A stretch of DNA of 40,312 nucleotides from NCBI GenBank assembly GCA_018266475.1, contig JAFEAI010000046.1, positions 1-40,312 of the forward strand. Direction: 5' to 3'. Positions 22,027-35,179 of the stretch are shown here, in pieces; the first letter of the stretch is position 1; each line of letters begins with the position of its first letter. The stretch is from Bacteroidota bacterium (lineage in GTDB: Bacteria > Bacteroidota > Bacteroidia > Flavobacteriales_F > PHOS-HE28). Below the pieces are notes generated by a model. The model saw only the letters and a list, made by a program, of their open reading frames with translations, searched no databases and was not told the DNA's origin. The position numbers and the translations under genes were made by a program.

Positions 22027-22099
22027 TGACCGATGGTGTAACTGGCAACACGTCTGATTTTGGTTCAGAAGAGTCTAGGTTCGAGCCCTAGTCGGTCAA
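22027..22099 (+). tRNA. tRNA-Gln (anticodon TTG)
   Basis: A complete 73-nt cloverleaf can be drawn. The acceptor stem is TGACCGA/TCGGTCA, the D stem GTGT/ACAC, and the anticodon stem TCTGA/TCAGA with loop TTTTGGT, giving anticodon TTG (glutamine, CAA/CAG). The variable loop is AGAGT and the T stem CTAGG/CCTAG with loop TTCGAGC. The discriminator base is A. CCA is not encoded (ACAGG follows), as is common in this phylum. Confidence 0.97.
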
Positions 22100-22103
22100 C
22101 AGG

Positions 22104-22129
22104 AAAACCCCGCGAAAGCGGGGTTTTTT
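22104..22129 (+). terminator. Rho-independent terminator of tRNA-Gln
   Basis: The stem CCCCGC/GCGGGG with a GAAA tetraloop is preceded by AAAA and followed by TTTTTT. It lies 5 bp after the tRNA and is a textbook intrinsic terminator. Confidence 0.93.
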
Positions 22130-22292
22130 GTTGGGCGGCTGCGCCCCCCTTCCCAGCGCTCGGCTGTGCATGGATGCCAAAGATCCGCCGAGTGCCCGGG
22201 CAGGCCATGGAACTGGTTGTGAAGCCTGGCACCGGCGTGGATATATTGCGCACAAAGGCCCTGCCCATGGAAAACCACAACCGCACCCAGGC

Positions 22293-23477
22293 ATGAACTC
22301 CTACACCTACAACGATGTGAGCTGGCATGTGTACGGCGAGATCAACCGGGGCACCGTAGCGGTAACGCACATGAAGGCGAAGGAGGCCCACCGGGATGCA
22401 CTCACCAATTTCCTGCTGCATGCCGTGGGCATCATGAACTGGACCAACAAGCCCGGGCCGATCACCTACACCATTACCGAGACGGAACAAGGCTACACGT
22501 TCCACATGGACTGGGAAACCACCAAGGTGAAGGCACAGGCCATACAGGACACCATTGAACTGATGAAAGTGCAGGAGCGGCCCGCCACCGGCAAAACCCA
22601 GTGGAGGCATGCACTCGTGTACGATGTCGAAAACGTGCTCGGCTATTGCAGCGAGCTGGAATATGCCCATTTGCCCATTGAAGGCAATGACCTGGCACGC
22701 GCACACTTGGAAGCCATGGTCCGCTTCACCAGTTTGGTGGATGCCCCGCACATACCGCGCTTATATGTGGATGGGCCCCAACGCCAGGTGAGCATCTTCG
22801 ACCTGTTCAAGTTTCAATGGTTGAACCGCAACCAATTGAACATGGAGTTCCTGGTCGGGGAGGACGATGCGCTTTCCGCTCAGATCAGCATACCTGGCAA
22901 GCAGGCGGAACTCACTCTTGGCGACCGCACCCGTGCCCACGCCAACCTGGTGCGCTTCCTGCAGGCCATCCGCAACATCATCCATTCCGTGGAAGAGCGG
23001 TTTCCCGTGGTGAACGTGGCCACCATGCGCACCAGCAGGTATTACGACGAGGAGTGGGACGAGCAGTTCGTGCTTGATGTGGATGATAGGGACGACCCGT
23101 GCCCGATCAAGGCTGAAGTGCTGCACACGCGCTACGTCCACTTCAGGGAGGACCGGACCCATTGTTCCATGGATATCCACAACCGCCAAGGCTACACAAG
23201 TACCTTTAACGTGTTGATCCGCGAGGGTGCGGACCTGATACGGGAAGATAATTGGTTCTACCGGAGCAGCGGGCGATATGTACACGGCGAAGGGTTTGAA
23301 CAACCCACACGGGCACAACTGGAATCAACCGTGCGCCTCGCGTTCACCTGCGATAATTACGACCTGCGCACGGCCGTTTCCGGAGCCATGCGCCAGTTCC
23401 TGCATGATCTGGGGCCGGGCCGCTATAAAGAGATCTACAACGCGGAATTTCCCCAAGAACTGGCACGGGAGATCTGA
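22293..23477 (+). CDS. Hypothetical protein, 394 residues, unrecognised family
   Basis: I do not recognise this protein. It is soluble-looking, acidic, with no signal peptide or membrane helix. The N-terminal 100 residues alternate strand and helix (MNSYTYNDVSWHVYGEI...). The centre has a DLFKFQWLNRNQLNMEF segment, and the C-terminus is rich in charged and aromatic residues (RYVHFREDRTHCSMDIHNR) and ends in helices. The ATG at 22293 is chosen because the frame upstream runs through the tRNA terminator region and has non-coding composition. A weak promoter-like TATATTGC sits at 22242-22249. The gene stands alone, between the tRNA-Gln terminator and the convergent SIR2-like gene. Codon use looks like the host's GC-rich genes, so it is probably resident and not recently acquired. 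Confidence 0.8.
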   Translation: MNSYTYNDVSWHVYGEINRGTVAVTHMKAKEAHRDALTNFLLHAVGIMNWTNKPGPITYTITETEQGYTFHMDWETTKVKAQAIQDTIELMKVQERPATGKTQWRHALVYDVENVLGYCSELEYAHLPIEGNDLARAHLEAMVRFTSLVDAPHIPRLYVDGPQRQVSIFDLFKFQWLNRNQLNMEFLVGEDDALSAQISIPGKQAELTLGDRTRAHANLVRFLQAIRNIIHSVEERFPVVNVATMRTSRYYDEEWDEQFVLDVDDRDDPCPIKAEVLHTRYVHFREDRTHCSMDIHNRQGYTSTFNVLIREGADLIREDNWFYRSSGRYVHGEGFEQPTRAQLESTVRLAFTCDNYDLRTAVSGAMRQFLHDLGPGRYKEIYNAEFPQELAREI

Positions 23478-23538
23478 TCCGGGGACCCATGCGGCCAGCA
23501 TACATCGCGTCCTTCGCCGCTCAACGCGAACGGGAGTT

Positions 23539-23588
23539 CTTCGATCGTGCCTTCATCCACTGACGGATGTATAAGGCACAAGCGTGGA
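23539..23588 (-). repeat. 50-bp hairpin repeat, copy A, downstream of the SIR2-like gene
   Basis: On the minus strand this lies 20 bp after the SIR2-like stop codon. It folds as GTGCCTT/AAGGCAC plus CATCC/GGATG, with a 3-nt bulge and a 6-nt loop (23547-23579). It aligns without gaps to copy B (24715-24764) at 39 of 50 positions, and both contain CACGCTTGTGC or AACGCTTGTGC at the same end. No T-run follows, so it is not a standard terminator. Confidence 0.75.
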
Positions 23589-23608
23589 CGGTCGTGCCTG
23601 TTTTGCAC

Positions 23609-24646
23609 TCAAAGTTCCGGAGGCAACATGAATTTATCCACTGAGTCATACAAGACGATGTCCACGTTGTTTTGGAGTGGAATGGCCTTGAATGCATTGG
23701 CCACGGCCTTAATGCCGTGTTCGGTGGATTGGAGATAGACCTTCTTCAATTTTGGCATACCTCCGATCACGGCCCTATCGATCACACGATTGAAAAATGG
23801 AAAGGAGTACCCAATGGCAACAAGCACCTCGCATTCATCCATAATCCCTGCCAGTCGTAATAGGCACTGGCGGATTCGTGCCTCGTCTTCCCAAGCAAAC
23901 CGCACCATTGTCAAGCGACCATTTCCTGACAACCCATCTCGATTTCTGACGAAAAGATCAAGCACTCGTAAAACTTGTTCAGCACGGCTAATGCCATCAG
24001 GTATCACTGGCATCAAGCCTCTGTAGCTCCCTGCTACAACCCCATTCAGATGAATTACCTTGGGAATAGTCTCAACATTCAAGAGTGATTCTAGGGTTGT
24101 CAGCCGTAACCCTTCCATCGCCATTTCAAGGCGTGCGTCATACCAGTACCGCTTGAACATCAAGGGAAGTTGTAGGTCATAATTCCAAGTAAGCAAGAGC
24201 ACATCATCTGATATGCTGGCCAAACTCTTTTCATCAATGCCCATGATCGATGCAAAGAACCCATCATAGCGAGAGTCCACTTTCCCGCTTGTCATTTGGT
24301 TATACGAGAAATACGTTGTCAGTAGAATCTTAAGCTGTTCAAGTGCCTTCCGCTTACCTCCTATGTACAACTTCTTCGCGTAGGTATCAATACTCTCATG
24401 AGCTTGTGCGTGTCGGGCCAGTTCGTTCATGGCCTCAACATATTCATCTATTGTTTGCTCATAATCCGCATTGACTGAGAGCCGGATAGGGCATTCGGTG
24501 ATGTCAAGCCCTTTACATTCACGTATCTGATTCGCGTGGGCGATCATTTGGCCAGGCAGATCGCTTACCATGGGAAGTGCCCCGCTACTTGCACCTGCAC
24601 CAAAAAGATAGACTACGCGTGGTTTGTTACGATCATTCATGTTCAA
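23609..24646 (-). CDS. SIR2-like domain protein, putative defence NADase
   Basis: This 345-residue protein opens with a Rossmann strand and the GAGAS loop (residues 16-20) of the SIR2/NAD-binding fold. LLTWNYD follows (151-157; the N-Y-D matches the conserved TxNYD motif), then IHLNG (198-202; H199 is the position of the catalytic histidine), and AIGYSFPFFNRVID (278-290), the usual late SIR2 motif. Zinc-binding cysteine pairs of deacetylase sirtuins are absent. This pattern is typical of SIR2-like proteins in bacterial antiphage systems, which degrade NAD+ on infection. The assignment to defence is inferred from fold and from the neighbouring restriction genes. Base composition is much more AT-rich than the flanking core genes, indicating transfer. 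Start ATG 24646 or 24640 are equally possible. Confidence 0.78.
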   Translation of the reverse strand: MNMNDRNKPRVVYLFGAGASSGALPMVSDLPGQMIAHANQIRECKGLDITECPIRLSVNADYEQTIDEYVEAMNELARHAQAHESIDTYAKKLYIGGKRKALEQLKILLTTYFSYNQMTSGKVDSRYDGFFASIMGIDEKSLASISDDVLLLTWNYDLQLPLMFKRYWYDARLEMAMEGLRLTTLESLLNVETIPKVIHLNGVVAGSYRGLMPVIPDGISRAEQVLRVLDLFVRNRDGLSGNGRLTMVRFAWEDEARIRQCLLRLAGIMDECEVLVAIGYSFPFFNRVIDRAVIGGMPKLKKVYLQSTEHGIKAVANAFKAIPLQNNVDIVLYDSVDKFMLPPEL

Positions 24647-24714
24647 GCTTCATTGTAATTTTTCCTAAGCCCTCAACATACCAATACATCACCCCTCCAA
24701 CTCGCATGAACGCC

Positions 24715-24764
24715 CTTCGCTTGTGCGTTCACACACGGACGAATGTTTAGAGCACAAGCGTTGA
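24715..24764 (-). repeat. 50-bp hairpin repeat, copy B, downstream of the HNH gene
   Basis: On the minus strand it begins 28 bp after the HNH-protein stop codon. The arms CGCTTGTGC (24718-24726) and GCACAAGCG (24752-24760) are perfect 9-bp inverted repeats, with a smaller inner stem GTTC/GAAT. It is homologous to copy A at 23539-23588. Together the two copies bracket the SIR2-like gene. Confidence 0.75.
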
Positions 24765-24791
24765 TACCCGCGCCAGGGGTGGAATCGCGTT

Positions 24792-25823
24792 TCATTTCGC
24801 AGCCCTATGAACCGTTATGGCGCTGATGCTCATGTGGCACGGCCCGCCATTGCCAGAAGCCACCAGGCCAAAACGAGAGGTGAATGACTGCGGAATCTTC
24901 TTTGTCAGGACACGTTTACCATTGATAGAAAGCAGCGCGACATGGAGTTTGTTCGATTGAATAGGAAGAACCTTCAGTTCCACTTCGAACCGGGGTCTTG
25001 GATTCTGCGGAAGTGACCGCTCGTACCACTCATCACCTTCCAAGAAACCTAATACAATGCCGTCAGATTCCGTGTCGTTCCGAATAGTAACTGATACCTC
25101 GCCGAAGACTTTGTGTGCACCCAACGTACCTTCCATGTTCATCAGCTTCATCGTGAATTTGAAGCGATTTCCATTCGGGGACACCAGTGCTTCAAATGAT
25201 CTGAATGGAGACCTCAGCCCGAATTCCTTTGAATACGAGGGGTGTCCGATCTGTAGCTCTTGCTTCGGTCCACTGGTGGAAGGTTGCCAAGACTCGCCTT
25301 GAGCCACAACATGGCGTAACCTGTTGTCAGAGATCTCACGTTCATCCAGCGGATCGTCTGACAATAGTTTGGGCACTGGCCATTTGACTTGGGGTTCTTT
25401 TTTGGCCAACGGTGGCGCTCCGACTTCTCCAGGCAAATGGTTCCTCGTCTCAATGGCGGCATGCATGTCGTGCATCGCTGCAGAAGAATCCTGAAAGACA
25501 GACCCTTCTGCTGAACTGGGTGTGCCTTGTGGTTGGGAGCTTCGGCGCTCCCGCACAATGGTTTCCCAGTCTGTCTTGTACTTGCGAACCAAGGGCTCAT
25601 TGAACTTCCTTCCAAAGCCGCCTCTCAACATTGTGTCGTCATGACATATCGTGCATAGCACTGCGATGTTTGACTCCACATTGTTGCTTGGGTCTTCATC
25701 AATGTGGTGCGTCTGAACCGGCAGCCTTGGCAGACGACATCGGCAACAAGTCATATCCGACTTGAACAACACCTCCGTTGCTATATCCTCCGGCACTACT
25801 ACTCGCACTTTCTTTTCGGCCAT
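24792..25823 (-). CDS. HNH-type zinc-finger nuclease-like protein
   Basis: The 343-residue protein has an N-terminal HNH-like module. C26-x2-C29 is followed by THHIDEDPSNN (H39, H40), N52, and LCTICH (C57-x2-C60-H61), giving a Cys4 zinc site around a beta-beta-alpha-metal fold. This is the arrangement of HNH endonucleases. Residues 95-170 look low in structure. The C-terminal half (about 175-343) is beta-rich with no motif I can name and could be a binding or sensor domain. The gene starts 11 bp after the hsdS stop on the same strand, so it probably belongs to the hsdM-hsdS transcript. The coding sequence is AT-richer than core genes. It could be an accessory nuclease or effector of the restriction locus, but that is inference. 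Confidence 0.72.
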   Translation of the reverse strand: MAEKKVRVVVPEDIATEVLFKSDMTCCRCRLPRLPVQTHHIDEDPSNNVESNIAVLCTICHDDTMLRGGFGRKFNEPLVRKYKTDWETIVRERRSSQPQGTPSSAEGSVFQDSSAAMHDMHAAIETRNHLPGEVGAPPLAKKEPQVKWPVPKLLSDDPLDEREISDNRLRHVVAQGESWQPSTSGPKQELQIGHPSYSKEFGLRSPFRSFEALVSPNGNRFKFTMKLMNMEGTLGAHKVFGEVSVTIRNDTESDGIVLGFLEGDEWYERSLPQNPRPRFEVELKVLPIQSNKLHVALLSINGKRVLTKKIPQSFTSRFGLVASGNGGPCHMSISAITVHRAAK

Positions 25824-25834
25824 TGTGCCATCTG

Positions 25835-27229
25835 TTAGTTTCTCCCCATCACCATCCCTTCCACCTCTTCCTTCGTCTCCCTCCGTTTCGCCTCCGCCTG
25901 CTCCTTCATCCGTGCCGCCTGCGCACGGCCTTCGGTCAACGCGCGCACAAGCTCATGTTGCTCCTTCAACTTGGGCACCGGTATGCGCAGCCCCAGCAAT
26001 GCCGTTTTCGTGATGTTCTGCATGGTGGGTGAACTGCCCGTGATGGCCGCTTCGATCTGCTGGCGCAGCGGCGGCGTCTTCATCACTTCGGCGAAGTAGG
26101 TACCGTCCAGCGGACTATCGGGCTTGAAGACCACCCGGAAGATCTTGTCGCACAGCAGGAGCTTGGGCCGTGTGGCATGCACCACGGCGCAGGCACCCAC
26201 GTAGCGCGGCACGTTGGCGCGGCTGATGAGCACATCGCCGGATCTGATCTCGTAGGCCGGTATGGGCTTCAGTGTGGAGGGTAGCGCCTTGTTCTCGTCC
26301 TCGTCGTACGCGCCGAAGCTGACGGCGCCGAGTTTCAGCACGCCCCATTCATCGGCCTTTGCGGGGTGGCTGTGGCATTGCGGGCTCCAGCCATTCTCCA
26401 GGTCGGCCACCACATCGCTTACGCGGCGAACCGGGAACCGGCTGCGACTGAATGCATCACCTTGAATAGCTTGCTTCAGAAATCCCACTGACCAGCGTTC
26501 CAATTGATCGCTCGTCAACGCGAAAGCCCGTGGCACATTCATGGCCTTGTTCGTACCGATCCCCAACGCCTCCACAAACCCCGCCTGCGCCTCCTCCACC
26601 AGCTTCTTGGCCTTGGTCTCCAGCGCGGCGGCTTGTTGCATGCCCGACTGCCAGTGCGCTACGATGGAACGTTGGGTGGCGAGCGATGGGAGCGGTATCT
26701 CCAATGTTTCGATCATCGAAGGCTCCACGCGCTTTCTACCGCTGGCACCACTGATCAGGCCATTGACCATTCTTTGGAATGCGAAAGAGCGGATGACCAA
26801 CTTCAAGTAAAGGGCATCCGCAATTGAGGCGTCCACCTTATAAATCGGATACTCGGTTGTCCAAGCCGAAGCACCAATGTCGTCAGGAACGATGCCAATG
26901 GAACCATTGCGCACATCAATCTTAGAGTAGACAAGATCGCCAGCCTCTGCCCGGAACAACTTGCCTTTCACTTCATCCTTACCTCGCTTGGACCGCAGTT
27001 CCATTTCGCCAGTGAAGCGCAACGTGACCATCGGTACTGGACATTTTGTAGCGGCACCGTTCAATGGAACCAGGCTGCGGGTCATTGCAGCGGACAATGG
27101 CTTGATCGTATCGGTAGGCCAATTCCATGAAAGTTGCCTGAACGCGGACACGCTCCATCGCTCAATGTCCTTGAACTCCACCGCAAACGCCCGGCTCACC
27201 TTCACGCTATGTTCCACGGTGCTGCTCAT
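25835..27229 (-). CDS. hsdS: Type I-like restriction-modification specificity subunit (HsdS)
   Basis: This 464-residue DNA-recognition subunit has two target-recognition half-subunits that are internally repeated. VSRAF...IERWSV begins near residue 11 and VPRAF...LERWSV near residue 232. Each target-recognition domain ends in the typical strand IPLPSLATQ (178-186) or IPVPKLKEQ, followed by a long coiled-coil helix (LETKAKKLVEEAQ; RMKEQAEAKRRETKEE) that spaces the two domains. The two domains would read the two halves of a bipartite site. The ATG at 27229 overlaps the TGA of the methyltransferase gene by 4 bp (ATGA); the frame continues upstream inside that gene but is not a credible start. 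The partner methyltransferase also carries a nuclease domain, and no HsdR gene is nearby. Confidence 0.9.
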   Translation of the reverse strand: MSSTVEHSVKVSRAFAVEFKDIERWSVSAFRQLSWNWPTDTIKPLSAAMTRSLVPLNGAATKCPVPMVTLRFTGEMELRSKRGKDEVKGKLFRAEAGDLVYSKIDVRNGSIGIVPDDIGASAWTTEYPIYKVDASIADALYLKLVIRSFAFQRMVNGLISGASGRKRVEPSMIETLEIPLPSLATQRSIVAHWQSGMQQAAALETKAKKLVEEAQAGFVEALGIGTNKAMNVPRAFALTSDQLERWSVGFLKQAIQGDAFSRSRFPVRRVSDVVADLENGWSPQCHSHPAKADEWGVLKLGAVSFGAYDEDENKALPSTLKPIPAYEIRSGDVLISRANVPRYVGACAVVHATRPKLLLCDKIFRVVFKPDSPLDGTYFAEVMKTPPLRQQIEAAITGSSPTMQNITKTALLGLRIPVPKLKEQHELVRALTEGRAQAARMKEQAEAKRRETKEEVEGMVMGRN

Positions 27230-29484
27230 GCGGCGGTGTGCAGCAGGAAGGGCTTGGGGTCCTTGCGGAAAGCCTGGTACTGTTCCAAGCAGGTACGTTC
27301 CAAGCCGGGCGGCACCTTGGGGTTGGGGTAGAGTTCGTTCCAGGTGTCGGTATCGCCGGTGGCGGTAATGCCCACGTGTTCGGCCTCGTAGAAGAAGACG
27401 GGGTAGTTCCAGGCCTGCTTCAGCAAGGTGCGCGCTTCCTGTGCAAGGCGCACCTCGCATTCGGCCACCAAGGCTTTGTGATCGCGCTGCAGGGCTTTTA
27501 ACTTGGCCGCTTGGCGTGCGGCCTTCGCCTGTTGCATGCCCGCCTCCAGGTCCGTGAGCCGGGGCTGGTAGTGGGCAAGCACCGCCTTGCGGGCCTTGCT
27601 ACCTGCTTCGGTCCGTGCCGTGCCAAAACGGTCCTGCTCCTGCGCGGTGTATTTCTGCAGGAAGAGGATGCTGGTCTTCACGCTGGCCTTGCTGCTCTTG
27701 AAAGTATCGTCGGGCAGGCTCACCACGGCGCGGAGCCAGGCGCGGTCCTCCACGAAATCGCGCACGTACTTCAGGCTGGGGTTGTTGAAGATGCCCTCGG
27801 GCAGCACCACGCCCAGCCTGCCGCCGGGTTTCAGCAGGTCGAGGCAGCGCTCCATGAAGAGGATCTCGGTCTTCACCTTGCCCAGCTTGGGGCTGTTCAC
27901 GTAGGGCAGCTGGAAGAGGCTGGCGATGGGCTTTTCCTTTTCCGCCGCATCGAACAGCGTCTGCTGGGCCTCCACATACGCTTTGCCATAAGCGCGCTTG
28001 TACTTGGTGGCGGCTTCGGCCACCACGCTCACCTGGTCGGGAAGCACCAAGTCGGTGGGCTCCACGTTGGCACCGAAGGGCGGGTTGGTGAGGATGATGT
28101 CGAAGCGGCCGGGGAAGATGCCGTTGACGTTGAGGAAGCCGTTGTGGTGGTGGATGCCGCCGTGGCCATCGCCGTGCATGATCATGTTCATCTTGCTGGT
28201 GCGGGCCATGCGGTCGTTGGCATCGGTGCCGTAGATGCAGCGGTTGGCTAAGCGCCAAAGGCGGGTGCCGCCCTCGCCTTGCTCGTCGCCGATGGACTGG
28301 TCGAGTTCCTGTTGCAGTTCCGCCCACCTGGCCAGCAGGAGTTCGGCGCGTTTGGCCTCGCTCAACTTCTTCTTCGCCAGCTCGTCTTCGTAGGCTTTAT
28401 ACTGCGCATCGATGTCGTGCGCGATCTGTTCGCGCACCAGCTCGAAAAAGCGGATGAGGAAGCCGCCGCTGCCGCTGGCTGGGTCGCAGATCAGCTCGCC
28501 TTCCTGCGGCTCCACCATGCGGATCATGAACTCCACGATAGGGCGCGGAGTGAAGAACTGGCCGATCTCGCCCCGGAAGGTGCGGCCCAGGAAGCGTTCG
28601 AAGGCGATGCCCTTCACGTCCTCGCCGGTGTCGCTCAGGTTGTAGGCCTCCAGCTTCTCCACGATGGCCTCGGTGGTCTGGGGCTTCAGGCGGATGGCAT
28701 CGTCCTCGGCAAAGAGCTTGTCCGTCTTGTAGTGGCGCTTGGTCTTGGCGAAGAGGTCGTTGATGGGGTCGTCGCCAAGCTGGTCTTTCAGGAATTCCCT
28801 GGTGAAGAGGTTGCGCTTCTTCTTGGCGCGCAATTCGCGTTCGGTGAAGGTCTTCACGAAGAGGATCTTGGCGATCTCGTCAAACGCTGCGGCGGGGTCC
28901 AGGTGTTCGCGGTTGCGGATGATGTTGTGGCACTGGTGCAGCAGGTTGGCGAACTCGTCCTCCTTGAAGGTCTTCAGTTCGTTCAGGATCTTGTCAATCT
29001 CCTTCTGGCTGTCGCCGGCCTTGGGGATGTCCTTGATCTCGCTCCAGTTGGGATAGAGCTTGCTTTGGTCCACCTTGAAGAACTTGCTCTGCCGGTTGTT
29101 GTGCGCCACGAAGAAGGGCGCCTTGGTGTAGTTGGCGTAGGCTCCGCCCTGCTTGTAGGTGCCTTGGTCCACCGTGATGTTGGCGGCCTTGCATTCCACC
29201 ACCACCAGCGGGATGTTCTTCTCGCGCTTGTCGGCCTCGCTGCGCCACACCACGATGTCGGCCCGGGCGTCGCTGTGGCCGCGCTCGCCGTCAATGCGCA
29301 TCTCTTCGGCCATCAGCTCCAGCGCGTAGCCATACTCGTTCACGAGGGTACATACGTACTGCTGGCGCACGGTCTCTTCGGGCGTTTCCACCAGCCACGT
29401 TTTGCGAATGTGGCTGCGGATCTTGCCCTTTCCGTCCCGCTGCACTTCGAGGACCTCGGGCGTTGTGATGTTCTTCTTTGCCAT
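27226..29484 (-). CDS. Fused PD-(D/E)XK nuclease and N6-adenine DNA methyltransferase (HsdM-like)
   Basis: The 752-residue protein has an N-terminal HsdR_N-type nuclease domain (about residues 20-135) with D76 in ADIVV and E97-x-K99 in VVVECKA, giving the D...ExK catalytic set. A helical linker with the HsdM N-terminal fold follows, then the N6-methylase core: GQFFTPR (308-314), DPASGSGG (334-341, S-adenosylmethionine loop, motif I), TNPPF (466-470, catalytic motif IV). The last 200 residues are a helical tail that includes the extra segment after VVLPEGIF. With the coupled HsdS it should cut and methylate as one R-M-S assembly, as in BcgI-like type IIB/IIG enzymes. ATG 29484 is preferred; 29514 is an alternative. 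A TATGTTTA element (29508-29515, minus) may be the promoter -7 box. Confidence 0.88.
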   Translation of the reverse strand: MAKKNITTPEVLEVQRDGKGKIRSHIRKTWLVETPEETVRQQYVCTLVNEYGYALELMAEEMRIDGERGHSDARADIVVWRSEADKREKNIPLVVVECKAANITVDQGTYKQGGAYANYTKAPFFVAHNNRQSKFFKVDQSKLYPNWSEIKDIPKAGDSQKEIDKILNELKTFKEDEFANLLHQCHNIIRNREHLDPAAAFDEIAKILFVKTFTERELRAKKKRNLFTREFLKDQLGDDPINDLFAKTKRHYKTDKLFAEDDAIRLKPQTTEAIVEKLEAYNLSDTGEDVKGIAFERFLGRTFRGEIGQFFTPRPIVEFMIRMVEPQEGELICDPASGSGGFLIRFFELVREQIAHDIDAQYKAYEDELAKKKLSEAKRAELLLARWAELQQELDQSIGDEQGEGGTRLWRLANRCIYGTDANDRMARTSKMNMIMHGDGHGGIHHHNGFLNVNGIFPGRFDIILTNPPFGANVEPTDLVLPDQVSVVAEAATKYKRAYGKAYVEAQQTLFDAAEKEKPIASLFQLPYVNSPKLGKVKTEILFMERCLDLLKPGGRLGVVLPEGIFNNPSLKYVRDFVEDRAWLRAVVSLPDDTFKSSKASVKTSILFLQKYTAQEQDRFGTARTEAGSKARKAVLAHYQPRLTDLEAGMQQAKAARQAAKLKALQRDHKALVAECEVRLAQEARTLLKQAWNYPVFFYEAEHVGITATGDTDTWNELYPNPKVPPGLERTCLEQYQAFRKDPKPFLLHTAA

Positions 29485-29718
29485 GGAATTCGTCAATGTG
29501 TGGTGGATAAACATAGTGCTTGCACCGGTTCGGTGGTGATCGCTATCCGGCAATAGGTAAACTGTCCAATGAACCAGGCCAAGACATTCCGGGGGACTCT
29601 ACTTCGTTCCCAACTCGCGTATGCACCTTCACCATGCGTTTGTGCATCACGGCCGCTTGCATGAGGCAATGGCATGTGATGCTCGTGGCAACGATGGATC
29701 AACATACATTGCGGACAA

Positions 29719-30042
29719 ATGAAATCACCCGTGGTAATGCGCTCAACTTGGCCTGATGAACTTTTCCTGAACACGCCGGAGCGATGGGGATTACGAGGTG
29801 ACCCGGGGTTGTGGCAAGAGCTCAGCGAAGTCCTCGCTATGGAACCGAAACCAGCATCCAAGGATGAGTTTCGAACGCTGCTGGTCCATACTATCCAACG
29901 ACTGATCGGCACTGCTTTGGACCACAATACAAGGCAACAGGTGAACCGCTATGATCACGGCGGTCTTTCAGGAGGGCAGGTTTATGGCCCTTGGTGGATG
30001 GACACCGGTATTCCGCTATTGGTGTCCCGCTTCCACCCGTAA
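29719..30042 (+). CDS. Small hypothetical protein, 107 residues
   Basis: I cannot name the family. The sequence looks like a folded small protein: a W/L-rich N-terminus (LFLNTPERWGLRGDPGLWQEL), a central amphipathic helix, and a glycine-rich C-terminus (YDHGGLSGGQVYGPWW) ending in IPLLVSRF. The start could be 29719 or the in-frame ATG at 29737. It is divergent from the hsdM-like gene across 234 bp and convergent with the CpXC gene. Composition is close to 50% GC, like the accessory genes around it. No signal peptide or membrane helix is visible. It could be an immunity or inhibitor-type protein, but nothing in the sequence proves a role. Confidence 0.65.
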   Translation: MKSPVVMRSTWPDELFLNTPERWGLRGDPGLWQELSEVLAMEPKPASKDEFRTLLVHTIQRLIGTALDHNTRQQVNRYDHGGLSGGQVYGPWWMDTGIPLLVSRFHP

Positions 30043-30135
30043 GAATTGACCATACACCGGAGCCGTGCAGGGGGACTTCCACCTTTGCGTAAATTTTCTC
30101 CGTTCGTGCGATTGTGCTCCAACAGGGCACCCCAG

Positions 30136-30558
30136 CTAATCCTGCCCCCAAATGCCGCACAAATCCCTGAAGGAAAGGTACAGCACCAGCTCGCCGAGCG
30201 AGAAAACATAATGGGGTGTCCGGAAGTGCTCACCCCCGGTCTTGTCCATGATCGTTGAACTTATGGGGTCCAAGATCATTGTTCCCTGCTTGGTGATGTT
30301 CCTGTAGAACTTTGGGTTCTTCATGGACTCTTGGCTCACATACTGGATCAAGAACTTCCGTTCCATATCATGGTACAGAAGGTCTGCTTCCATGAAAGCC
30401 TCCTTTCCGCAGGCTTCACATTGGAATCGATTGATGAGCATGGCGCGTAGTAGCTTCATCGCCTTCTCATCCCGACTGTTCACCGAAGACCACACAGTTG
30501 TTTGCTGTTCATGGCTGCAGAATGGGCACGGTATCGTTTGAAGGTGGAAATCGGACAT
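30136..30558 (-). CDS. CpXC domain-containing protein
   Basis: This 140-residue protein matches the CpXC family pattern: CPFC near the N-terminus, a VWSSVNSRDE strand-turn, a helix ending in LINRFQCEACGK, then the LLYHDMERKFLIQYV strand pair. The two CxxC pairs should bind one zinc ion. The molecular function of the family is unknown. The start is placed at ATG 30558, just ahead of the first zinc pair; an in-frame ATG at 30591 would add 11 residues. The gene lies 15-48 bp downstream of the 101-residue gene on the same strand and the two are probably co-transcribed. Confidence 0.8.
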   Translation of the reverse strand: MSDFHLQTIPCPFCSHEQQTTVWSSVNSRDEKAMKLLRAMLINRFQCEACGKEAFMEADLLYHDMERKFLIQYVSQESMKNPKFYRNITKQGTMILDPISSTIMDKTGGEHFRTPHYVFSLGELVLYLSFRDLCGIWGQD

Positions 30559-30605
30559 CGAGCTTTTGGGTTTTGGGCAATTTATTGACATAGAGCCGAA
30601 TCACG

Positions 30606-30911
30606 TCAACGTGCGTATGCCGGCGGCGCTTTTTCCAAAGCCCGCAGCAATGCCATGCCCTTTCCGGGCCGCAACAGTATCGCCTCGAATTCGGGATGAT
30701 TGACGAAATAGCGCTTGCCTTTCGCAGTGGGTCGGTACTCGCAATTCGTAGCGGTATCGATTGGCCCGTATGTGATGAGACCCGCTTCCATCAACCGAAT
30801 GTGCTCAAGGCCCATGGCCTTGAGCAAACTGCCCAGTTCCACCGCACCAAATGAGGCTTGCAACCGTATAAATTGGTCACGACCTTCAATGCGCCGGTAG
30901 CCGTGGCTCAT
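30606..30911 (-). CDS. Small hypothetical protein, winged-helix-like, 101 residues
   Basis: The family is not recognised. The visible pattern is helix-helix-helix, then LMEAGLITYGP and EYRPTAKGKRYFVN, which resembles the wing and recognition part of small winged-helix transcription factors (a 'leaG-Lit...y.lT.kGr.yl' layout). It could regulate itself and the CpXC gene immediately downstream. The ATG at 30911 is the only good start. The pair sits between the restriction locus and the aspS duplication, in DNA of mixed GC. The DNA-binding role is inferred from pattern only. Confidence 0.6.
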   Translation of the reverse strand: MSHGYRRIEGRDQFIRLQASFGAVELGSLLKAMGLEHIRLMEAGLITYGPIDTATNCEYRPTAKGKRYFVNHPEFEAILLRPGKGMALLRALEKAPPAYAR

Positions 30912-31091
30912 GGTACATGTTTATCATGCTTATGGTACTGTGCTGGTGGCCACAAGGTACAGCGCTGTTCATGAAAGTCACGCGTGCATTCCTGGGCTAT
31001 CGGAACTTTCTCCTTCCGCAGAGGTCTTCGCATCCCGCAAATGCCACTTGCCCCATGCCGGGTGAGACCCTATGGCAGCGGATCCCCCGAC

Positions 31092-31322
31092 TCACCCGAC
31101 CCTCAACCCCAATTCCTTCAGCTGCTCCGCATCGATCGGACTTGGCGCATCGATCATTACGTCCTTGCCCGCGTTGTTCTTGGGGAAGGCGATGAACTCG
31201 CGGATGTCGCTACGGCCGCCGAAGAGGCTTACCCAGCGGTGGAAGCCGAAGGCCGCGCCGCCGTGCGGGGGTGCGCCGTACTCGAAGGCCTCCATGAGGA
31301 AGCCGAACTTGGCGCGGGCGTG
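31092..31322 (-). pseudogene. Duplicated 3' fragment of aspS
   Basis: The 218 bp at 31104-31321 repeat the 3' end of intact aspS (32751-32968) with only five mismatches (about 98% identity). The frame still reads [13 protein letters not shown] through to KELGLRVG and a stop at 31092, with a changed last few residues compared with KELGLAVKH in the intact gene. It lacks all upstream domains. The motif-3 aspartate (GFDRW in the intact gene) is replaced by histidine. The fragment cannot encode a synthetase. The open frame extends a little further upstream (to 31379), but that part has no similarity to aspS. Confidence 0.9.
31104..31321. repeat. 218-bp direct repeat, copy 1 (aspS 3' end)
   Basis: It pairs with 32751-32968 at an offset of 1,647 bp, with five substitutions and no gaps. 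Homology stops sharply at 31321, exactly where the first copy of a 14-bp direct repeat begins. Confidence 0.93.
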
Positions 31323-31334
31323 TTGGCCGGGCTT
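31321..31334. repeat. 14-bp direct repeat, copy 1
   Basis: TGTTGGCCGGGCTT is found here and again at 32666-32679. The two copies bracket the RhuM gene (1,331 bp between them). Copy 1 begins at the breakpoint of the aspS duplication. Confidence 0.8.
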
Positions 31335-31467: not shown

Positions 31468-32529
31468 TCAATCGGTTTGCCCACGCTGGGGTTGATGGGC
31501 CTTGTTCTCCCAGGCCAAAAAACGGTCGAAGTCGCTTTCATAAAGCCGATCCTGCACGATCCGATATTTCTCAAACTCTGTTTCGGCGTGCAGCTTGGCC
31601 TCTTCATGGCTGATCTTTCCCGGCCCGGAAAGGATCTCGCTACCGTTGAATTCAAGGAAGCCATCCAGGCGGTTGGCCCAGTCCTCCATGCTCATGGGCA
31701 CCTTGCGGGTTGCTTGTAACTCGGCAAAATCCAGATAGAGGGATACGATCCGCTCCAGATAGTCCATCTCCTCCGTGTTGAGGTAGTTCTTCGCAAAGCT
31801 CACATCGGCCTTGATGATCTTGCCGTCCGGTGCAGCTTCCCAACGGGTAAGCCCCATGTTCTTCACATCCGCGTTTGCCCGGCTGGCAATAAGTTCTGCT
31901 GCCGTATGACGGTGCGTGGCCCAATGCAGTTTGTTCTGCACCAATGAAAAGAAATTACGGGTGGCCTTGGCCTTGCTCTCATAGTCGAATGCGGTGGCGT
32001 ACAGGTCGGTCACCTTCTGGTAGAATTTCCGTTCCGAAAGCCGGATCTCCCGGATCTTCTGCAATTGGCGGTCGAAGTAGGCATCCGTGAACATGTGGCC
32101 CTTCTTCAGCCGGTCCACATCCATCGCCCAACCTTGTATGGTGTAGTCCTTCACGATGTGCCCCGCCCATTTCCGGAAGTGCGCGGCCCGGGGGTTGTTC
32201 ACCTTGAACCCCACTGCAATGATGGCCTGCAGGTTGTAGTGCTTGGCCCGGTATTCCTTTCCGTCAACGGCAGTTATTAAGTATTGCTTAATCACTGAAT
32301 CGGCGATCAGTTCACCATCTGTGAAGATCCGTTTCAGATGCTGGTTGATCGCGGGTATGCTGATGCCGTACAGCGTGGCCATCATCTTCTGCGTGAGCCA
32401 GATGTTCTCATTCTGGTAGCGCATTTCCATGCCTTGCCCCCCACCGCCGGTGGCAGCCACGTAGCTCAGGTATTCCGCGGCGGAAGACCGGATATTCGCC
32501 GAGCCAGGTGGTGTGTTCGTCTTGCGCAT
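31468..32529 (-). CDS. RhuM family protein
   Basis: The 353-residue protein has the RhuM (virulence_RhuM) signature: IWLTQKMMATLYGIS, a helix-turn-helix-like segment, INQHLKRIFTDGEL, then YNLQAIIAVGFKVNNPRAAHFRKWA. An alpha-helical C-terminal half follows (SERKFYQKVTDLYATAFDY, FFSLVQNKLHWA, YLERIVSLYLDFAE). It is full length for the family. RhuM proteins occur mainly in genomic islands, often beside restriction-modification genes, and their biochemical role is not settled. Here it lies between intact aspS and a copy of the aspS 3' end, and between two 14-bp direct repeats, which fits arrival as a discrete insertion. Start ATG 32529. Confidence 0.92.
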   Translation of the reverse strand: MRKTNTPPGSANIRSSAAEYLSYVAATGGGGQGMEMRYQNENIWLTQKMMATLYGISIPAINQHLKRIFTDGELIADSVIKQYLITAVDGKEYRAKHYNLQAIIAVGFKVNNPRAAHFRKWAGHIVKDYTIQGWAMDVDRLKKGHMFTDAYFDRQLQKIREIRLSERKFYQKVTDLYATAFDYESKAKATRNFFSLVQNKLHWATHRHTAAELIASRANADVKNMGLTRWEAAPDGKIIKADVSFAKNYLNTEEMDYLERIVSLYLDFAELQATRKVPMSMEDWANRLDGFLEFNGSEILSGPGKISHEEAKLHAETEFEKYRIVQDRLYESDFDRFLAWENKAHQPQRGQTD

Positions 32530-32735: not shown

Positions 32736-34721
<1,986 letters not shown>

Positions 34722-34777
34722 CGGTGCTGCAATATGGACCGGTGAAGGCCGCCGCGAAAGTACCGCTGGCGCACCAC

Positions 34778-35179
34778 CTACTGCGTGGTGAACGTGAGGC
34801 TGCGCTTGGTCAGGTCGCCGTTGCCCTCCACGGCGCTGAAGGTCCACTGCTCTGTGCCGGGCTGGTGGCGCAGGGCGTACAGGGTGTCGTACCGGAACGG
34901 CATGGTGTGGATCGGCAGGCTGTCCATGCGCTGGGCCGGGCCGCCATTGTAGCTGCGGTGTACCAGGAAGGTGCGCAGTTGCTTCGATCCCTCCTGCACG
35001 GTAACCCCGATGCGGATGGTGTCACCGGCGGGGAAGGTGTCGTTCCGGTAAGTGTAGCCGCTGTCCGTGGCGAAGGTGATCTTCGCCGCGCGGTACCCCG
35101 CGTCATCCTGGTCCTTGGTGCAGCCGTTGCCCAGCAACAGGCACGCGGCGGCTGCCAGCATGAGTAGTAAGGTGCGCAT
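34778..35179 (-). CDS. Small predicted lipoprotein, 133 residues
   Basis: The N-terminus [20 protein letters not shown] is a lipoprotein signal with lipobox LGNGC (cysteine at residue 20). A mature beta-rich domain of about 113 residues follows, with [29 protein letters not shown], then [12 protein letters not shown]-like strands, ending in SLTFTTQ. This resembles a single Ig-like or transthyretin-like sandwich, but I cannot assign a family. It would be anchored to a membrane, probably the outer one. The ATG at 35179 is chosen to give a good signal peptide; an upstream in-frame ATG at 35200 would add seven residues before it. It ends 57 bp before aspS on the same strand and may share a transcript. 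Confidence 0.8.

Follow-up and report, generated by a model that had tools for sequence, protein, structure and literature searches.

Hairpin repeats behind SIR2-like and HNH genes are very probably worn REPINs of a RAYT-linked family in a Flavobacteriales genus

Two related hairpin elements, E1 and E2, which lie behind a SIR2-like and an HNH-endonuclease-like accessory gene, can with little room for doubt be taken as worn copies of a RAYT-linked REPIN family of a Flavobacteriales genus. Both belong to a family that is dispersed over genomes, is biased towards intergenic sites and has REPs identical to its own flanking a RAYT. The DNA analysed (hereafter the window, 40,312 nucleotides) is contig C224 of a draft genome of 3.57 Mb and 97.9% completeness, and it was compared across 45 species genomes of one genus, the window's own genome (G000) included. 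The REPIN, a mobile unit in which REP doublets form hairpins and which is associated with a RAYT, was described by Bertels and Rainey in 2011 (PMC3116915). It is a known kind of element; the present family is newly described for the genus, within the literature searched. For a REPIN family of Bacteroidota, the analysis supplies a consensus together with copy numbers and the transposase that is likely to be cognate, and it removes a tempting but wrong reading of the elements as parts of defence-gene cassettes.

A preliminary description of this DNA had aligned 50-nt portions of E1 (23588-23539, minus strand) and E2 (24764-24715, minus strand) without gaps on the same strand. This alignment was reproduced, with identity at 39 of 50 bases and a best ungapped local score of 29, a value that 500 shuffles (13 or less) did not approach. 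Without gaps the match can be followed over 71 nt, with a common GTTG box at its end, and the full elements delimited with a refined covariance model (R2, see below) are longer than the 50 bp first noted (Table 1). Placement just 3' of two stop codons was also confirmed: the 50-nt portions of E1 and E2 lie 20 nt past the stop codon of the SIR2-like gene and 27 nt past that of the HNH gene, respectively. As single-stranded DNA, E1 folded better than its shuffles (z -2.7), and E2 folded no better than its own (z -0.2). The proposed compensatory changes between the two were not seen, none of the 17 stem pairs being altered on both sides; three pairs are kept in E1 but broken in E2, and one is kept in E2 but broken in E1.

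Table 1. Coordinates in the window of the elements, their REP halves and the neighbouring genes
Feature	Position	Strand	Basis
E1, very probable worn REPIN (two inverted REPs and spacer)	23510..23603	-	R2 70.6 bits, E 5.7e-20; R1 self-match
E1 REP half 1, GGCACGACCGTCCACGCTTGTGCC	23575..23598	-	REP pattern with three mismatches
E1 REP half 2, inverted, degenerate, GGCACGATCGAAGAACTCCCGTTCG	23527..23551	-	alignment A3 columns 38-62 against family alignment A4
E2, very probable worn REPIN	24686..24779	-	R2 73.0 bits, E 1.1e-20
E2 REP half 1, GGCGCGGGTATCAACGCTTGTGCT	24751..24774	-	A4 alignment
E2 REP half 2, inverted, degenerate	24703..24727	-	A3 and A4 alignments
Possible very degraded third copy (weaker hairpin 29644-29682)	29599..29679	-	R2 14.0 bits, E 0.005 (search over 13 kb, filters off)
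394-aa gene, long-term neighbour of E1, without Pfam match	22293..23477	+	orthologs in G033 (94%), G024 (90%), G030 (76%)
SIR2-like accessory gene	23609..24646	-	PADLOC SIR2 E 9.3e-5; not at this site in G033, G030
HNH-endonuclease-like accessory gene	24792..25823	-	PADLOC ZorE HNH E 1e-5
Swapped segment (SIR2-like gene, E2, HNH gene)	23599..25842	.	blastn of window against L052 (G033) and annotation

A covariance model of the two copies had been proposed as a check, and such a model (R1), run on the 45 genomes, returned further copies in the window's own genome and in relatives, with best E values of 8e-13 in G033, 2.5e-10 in G030 and 5.8e-9 in the own genome. These matches are not circular, because R1 was built from E1 and E2 alone. 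The own-genome copies lie on contigs C236, C233, C178 and C79, and those of relatives in G033, G030, G019, G042, G028, G009 and G041. R2, refined from 21 aligned copies, gave matches in 33 of the 45 genomes, and its rows, counted over both strands, number 46 for the own genome and 63 for G033. A pattern for the single REP matched 25 times in the own genome versus 0 times for the reversed control, and among its matches was a subfamily, GCGTGCG...CGCACG, in which a stem A-T is exchanged for T-A. No match to the family consensus was found in a plasmid collection.

The family consensus drawn from aligned copies reads CTCTGGCGCGAGCGTCCACGCTCGTGCC, a spacer of about 20 nt, and then GCACGAGCGTGGACGCTCGCGCGAGTTGAGGG. 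Each half, of about 24 nt, folds into a hairpin whose loop has 4 nt, and the second is an inverted version of the first; an inverted pair of REP hairpins with a spacer is therefore the anatomy of the family, which is that of a REPIN. The two arms can also pair with each other in a helix of 22 pairs, in which 88.5% of cells are paired among the 21 copies and 14 cells show changes on both sides, versus 8.5 +/- 2.6 in shuffles. Most of this covariation excess comes from the loops, which are variable between copies and match within one copy, and covariation in the hairpin of each half alone was not beyond shuffles. At the hairpin foot the tetranucleotide GTAG or GTGG is absent, the foot of the family being CTCTGG or CACTGG.

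Within the family, the closest relatives of E1 are copies in G030 (72%) and G033 (71%), versus only 62% between E1 and E2, and the closest relative of E2 is a G033 copy (67%). An origin of E2 as a local duplicate of E1 was considered and rejected, each being closer to copies elsewhere than to the other. The weaker related hairpin that the preliminary description had noted upstream of the hsdM-like gene, near 29.64 kb, scores low with R2 (Table 1) and has GCGAGTTGG in common with E2; it is at most a very worn copy of the family.

The preliminary description had named a REP-like repeat family among several possibilities and a TnpA-REP transposase as something to look for, and on both counts it was borne out: copies are dispersed in the genome and its relatives, and a clade of REP-associated tyrosine transposases (RAYTs) lies between identical hairpins in four sister species. 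Most genomes of the genus encode Y1 transposases. Proteins of the RAYT clade in question (MSERYKFVEG...) share 87-100% identity. G033 encodes two of them, the clade also occurs in G042, G032 and G019, and every fetched copy of it adjoins or sits between family REPs, at loci L105 and L107 (G033), L104 (G032), L111 and L113 (G019) and L063 (G042), none of which played a part in building R2. At L105, REPs of the form CTCTGGCGCGAGCGTCC... stand before the RAYT gene, an inverted REP stands after it and a complete REPIN follows 90 nt beyond. The L105 protein scored 79.3 bits against the NCBIfam model for REP-associated tyrosine transposases (NF047646, cut-off 80), and four other RAYT proteins scored 82-101 bits. 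Copy number tracks the enzyme. The four genomes with the clade RAYT hold 31-63 R2 rows, which places them in the top six; the own genome (46 rows) and G030 (36 rows) have only remnants of this RAYT, and all other genomes have 21 rows or fewer.

An intact cognate RAYT was not found in the own assembly (97.9% complete). What was found is a C-terminal remnant of 62 codons at C178:12506-12664, which ends beside a REP. The own genome does encode two intact RAYTs, on C79 and C30, and both were rejected as the cognate enzyme. That on C79 is flanked by a different REP, TGGCGCGGATCTGCGATCCGTGCC (L101 5500-6220), which has only the hairpin base TGGCGCG...CGTGCC in common with the family and another stem core. 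A different REP is what one expects where every RAYT is paired with a REP of its own. The C30 gene has no family copies adjoining it.

Short fragments of RAYT genes were also observed away from the complete gene. One internal fragment lies between two REPs at L105 (8764-8815), and C-terminal pieces of about 40-55 codons occur in five genomes (G030:C15:67143, G019:C340, G032:C12:64289 and 64451, G017:C38, and G000:C178:12506). These scattered pieces suggest REP-bounded partial copying of the transposase gene. As a further observation, clade RAYT genes are tandem-duplicated or present twice per genome on G032:C12 (L104 4857-6297), G042:C203 (L063 16864-18020) and G033:C1, an unusual arrangement in that RAYTs are described as usually a single full-length copy per REP type.

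The placement of copies relative to genes was surveyed for 79 elements in the fetched regions with a simple gene caller of our own, which is rough. Both neighbours are known for 77 elements. Of these, 61 fall outside called genes, versus about 15% of random positions, and the 16 counted in genes are probably overcounted owing to the rough caller. Gaps between convergent genes are over-represented (18 of 61 elements versus 17% of random gap positions). With respect to the closest gene end, orientation shows no bias in these regions, with 25 elements in the same and 26 in the opposite direction, and an orientation rule for elements behind genes was rejected on this count.

These distributions bear on the idea that E1 and E2 do no more than terminate transcription of the two genes or stabilise the ends of their mRNAs, and are held by selection. 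Their position directly behind stop codons fits such a role, and effects of REPs on termination and on the stability of mRNAs are known (PMC6006769). However, no terminator-like structure is present on the strand of the genes and there is no excess over shuffles, the same element occurs in many other gaps in both orientations and beside RAYTs, and the gene next to E1 has diverged far more slowly than E1 itself. The dispersed family refutes termination as the sole explanation, and we hold this alternative to be highly improbable.

In the window, a tRNA-Gln gene and the 394-aa gene border a defence-gene site (22027-31083). Its contents are a type I restriction-modification system with the SIR2-like and HNH genes here, a type I system with PDC-S39 in G033, and a type III system with a Fic gene in G030. 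The names SIR2-like and HNH rest on weak PADLOC matches only, with no Pfam family, and SIR2-like homologs in other genomes of the genus are 29-34% identical (44% over one short piece). A REPIN orthologous to E1 lies about 30 nt behind the orthologs of the 394-aa gene in both G033 and G030. Because these orthologous copies follow the 394-aa orthologs, E1 belongs to the side of that gene and not to the SIR2-like gene. In G024 the 394-aa gene is present with no recognisable REPIN.

A blastn comparison with locus L052 of G033 matched 22283-23598 at 93.6% identity and then gave no match until 25843, where homology resumes in hsdS. Homology therefore ends, at 23598, on the exact outer edge of the E1 hairpin. 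In place of the swapped segment, G033 carries a gene of 235 aa and one of 618 aa (PADLOC PDC-S39, a candidate defence family). The flanks are shared: G033 has the 394-aa gene and the E1-orthologous REPIN on one side and, at 95% identity, the type I restriction-modification block (27155-31083) on the other. The order in G030 is REPIN, small gene, REPIN, small gene, followed by a second copy of the 394-aa gene 3' end with its REPIN, about 0.9 kb away, beyond which lie the type III restriction system and the Fic gene. Farther along the window, the 3' end of aspS (32745-32985; intact aspS at 32736-34847, minus strand) is matched by a fragment at 31092-31332. A RhuM-family gene (31468-32529) stands between the two, which looks like an insertion of this gene at the aspS end that duplicated the end of aspS. 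The aspS reading frame itself contains a 42-bp tandem repeat in frame (33545-33874).

The arrangement at this site invites the reading put forward in the preliminary description, in which E1 and E2 would serve as attC-like sites in an integron or some other cassette system, and every gene would move along with the hairpin at its 3' end. Both elements lie within 30 nt behind accessory genes of the same strand, in G030 the same site has two small genes each followed by a co-oriented copy, and the accessory genes at the site differ between species. By eye against the attC boxes RYYYAAC and GTTRRRY, the GTTG box is conserved and the spacing is asymmetric. The cassette reading nevertheless fails on several grounds. 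No integron integrase (TIGR02249) scored over the curated cut-off in the genome (assembly 97.9% complete); in this search for an IntI-type recombinase the best family score was 95 bits against a cut-off of 265, and the family also matches in all 14 control genomes. E1 stands on the side of the 394-aa gene in three species, and its orthologs adjoin other accessory genes in two of them. Neither E1 nor E2 is the other's closest relative, the near-even split of orientations leaves no rule with respect to gene ends, and identical hairpins flank RAYTs. The SIR2-like homologs of G021, G010 and G043, moreover, come from genomes in which R2 has no match at E <= 0.05. We therefore give a cassette system next to no credence. 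A retron-like origin, also mentioned earlier, is not supported either: no retron reverse transcriptase family was found among the annotated genes next to the elements, and an Rfam search over 22-33 kb gave only the tRNA and sub-threshold RsmY matches, with none at E1 or E2.

The broader claim that the repeats account for the assembly of defence genes is not shown; only the match between the edge of E1 and exchange breakpoints may still speak for it. REPINs sit at gene-exchange breakpoints at this one site, as their possible cause, through short homology or a RAYT, or as the mere border of a gap. As an addition to the REPIN reading, it is conceivable, though in our judgement doubtful, that RAYT-delivered REPINs now act as short homology seams for defence-gene exchange, through RecA crossover or residual RAYT cutting. 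Modules would then end exactly at the REPIN, and crossover or cutting would exchange the module and leave the REPIN and the core gene in place, an outline that we also consider unlikely overall. It is consistent with the end of G033 homology at the outer edge of E1 and its resumption only in hsdS, with the same REPIN abutting different genes in the own genome, G033 and G030, and with the duplicated 394-aa gene 3' end and REPIN in G030. Against it, the evidence comes from three species at one site only, and the exchange may simply have occurred in the adjacent gap. Since the REPIN is about 70% identical between species versus 95% for the neighbouring gene, a long stretch of perfect homology is lacking at the REPIN. 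If REPIN edges were true preferred breakpoints, otherwise inert repeats would acquire a part in shaping defence islands.

For the REPIN family itself, the ancestral unit would have been a non-autonomous, inverted pair of REP hairpins of about 24 nt with a spacer of about 20 nt. The folded REP, in single-stranded form, was most likely recognised by a RAYT (TnpA-REP), a single-strand transposase of the HUH type whose gene lies elsewhere. This enzyme would have cut next to the foot of the REP and joined copies to new places, mainly between genes, a chemistry taken over from the RAYT literature. Cleavage by TnpA-REP between C and T beside the hairpin has been shown for groups 2 and 3 (PMC8266576). 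The place of E1 and E2 behind the SIR2-like and HNH genes would accordingly reflect insertion into gaps at gene ends, with no cassette system involved. Copies in the window's genome have probably ceased to move, because the likely cognate RAYT survives there only as a C-terminal remnant. Some caveats attach to the REPIN reading: movement was not observed and no clean pair of filled and empty sites was found, the flanks in a search with L054 matching different relatives; in addition, the GTAG foot is absent, which takes away one diagnostic, the nearest RAYT, that of L105, falls just under the NCBIfam cut-off, the own assembly has no intact cognate RAYT, and E2 is too worn to fold well by itself.

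Among known systems, integron attC sites resemble E1 and E2 as imperfect hairpins behind a gene stop codon, but they differ in that the present elements have no IntI, follow no orientation rule and form a dispersed family with a RAYT. The REPINs of PMC3116915 are closer. Shared with them are the inverted REP pair with a spacer, the location in gaps, the identical REPs beside a RAYT and the occurrence of singlets and worn copies, whereas the foot here is not GTAG, copies were found in tens and not hundreds, and the own RAYT is only a remnant. A GTAG foot is not a defining feature of RAYT subclass 2.6 (group 5), for which its absence is published (PMC6006769), and the CTCTGG or CACTGG foot of the present family fits that description. 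That subclass, mostly from Bacteroidetes, has atypical flanking hairpins without GT[AG]G and with copies elsewhere in the genome; its motifs are NH[LIV]H, WQ and YIH[QN]NP, with a short insertion between alphaC and beta4, and its REPs were found by manual inspection and called atypical (PMC6006769). Read by eye, the L105 protein has NHLH, WQ and a Y-L-R-E-N-P variant, and the C79 protein has NHVH, WQ and YIHMNP. The likeness to subclass 2.6 lies in the phylum, in the NH[LIV]H and WQ motifs, in hairpins without GT[AG]G beside the gene and in copies elsewhere, membership being judged here from these motifs by eye and not from the published profile. In contrast to the REPs published for subclass 2.6, those described here form a defined doublet family with a consensus and copy numbers in several species.
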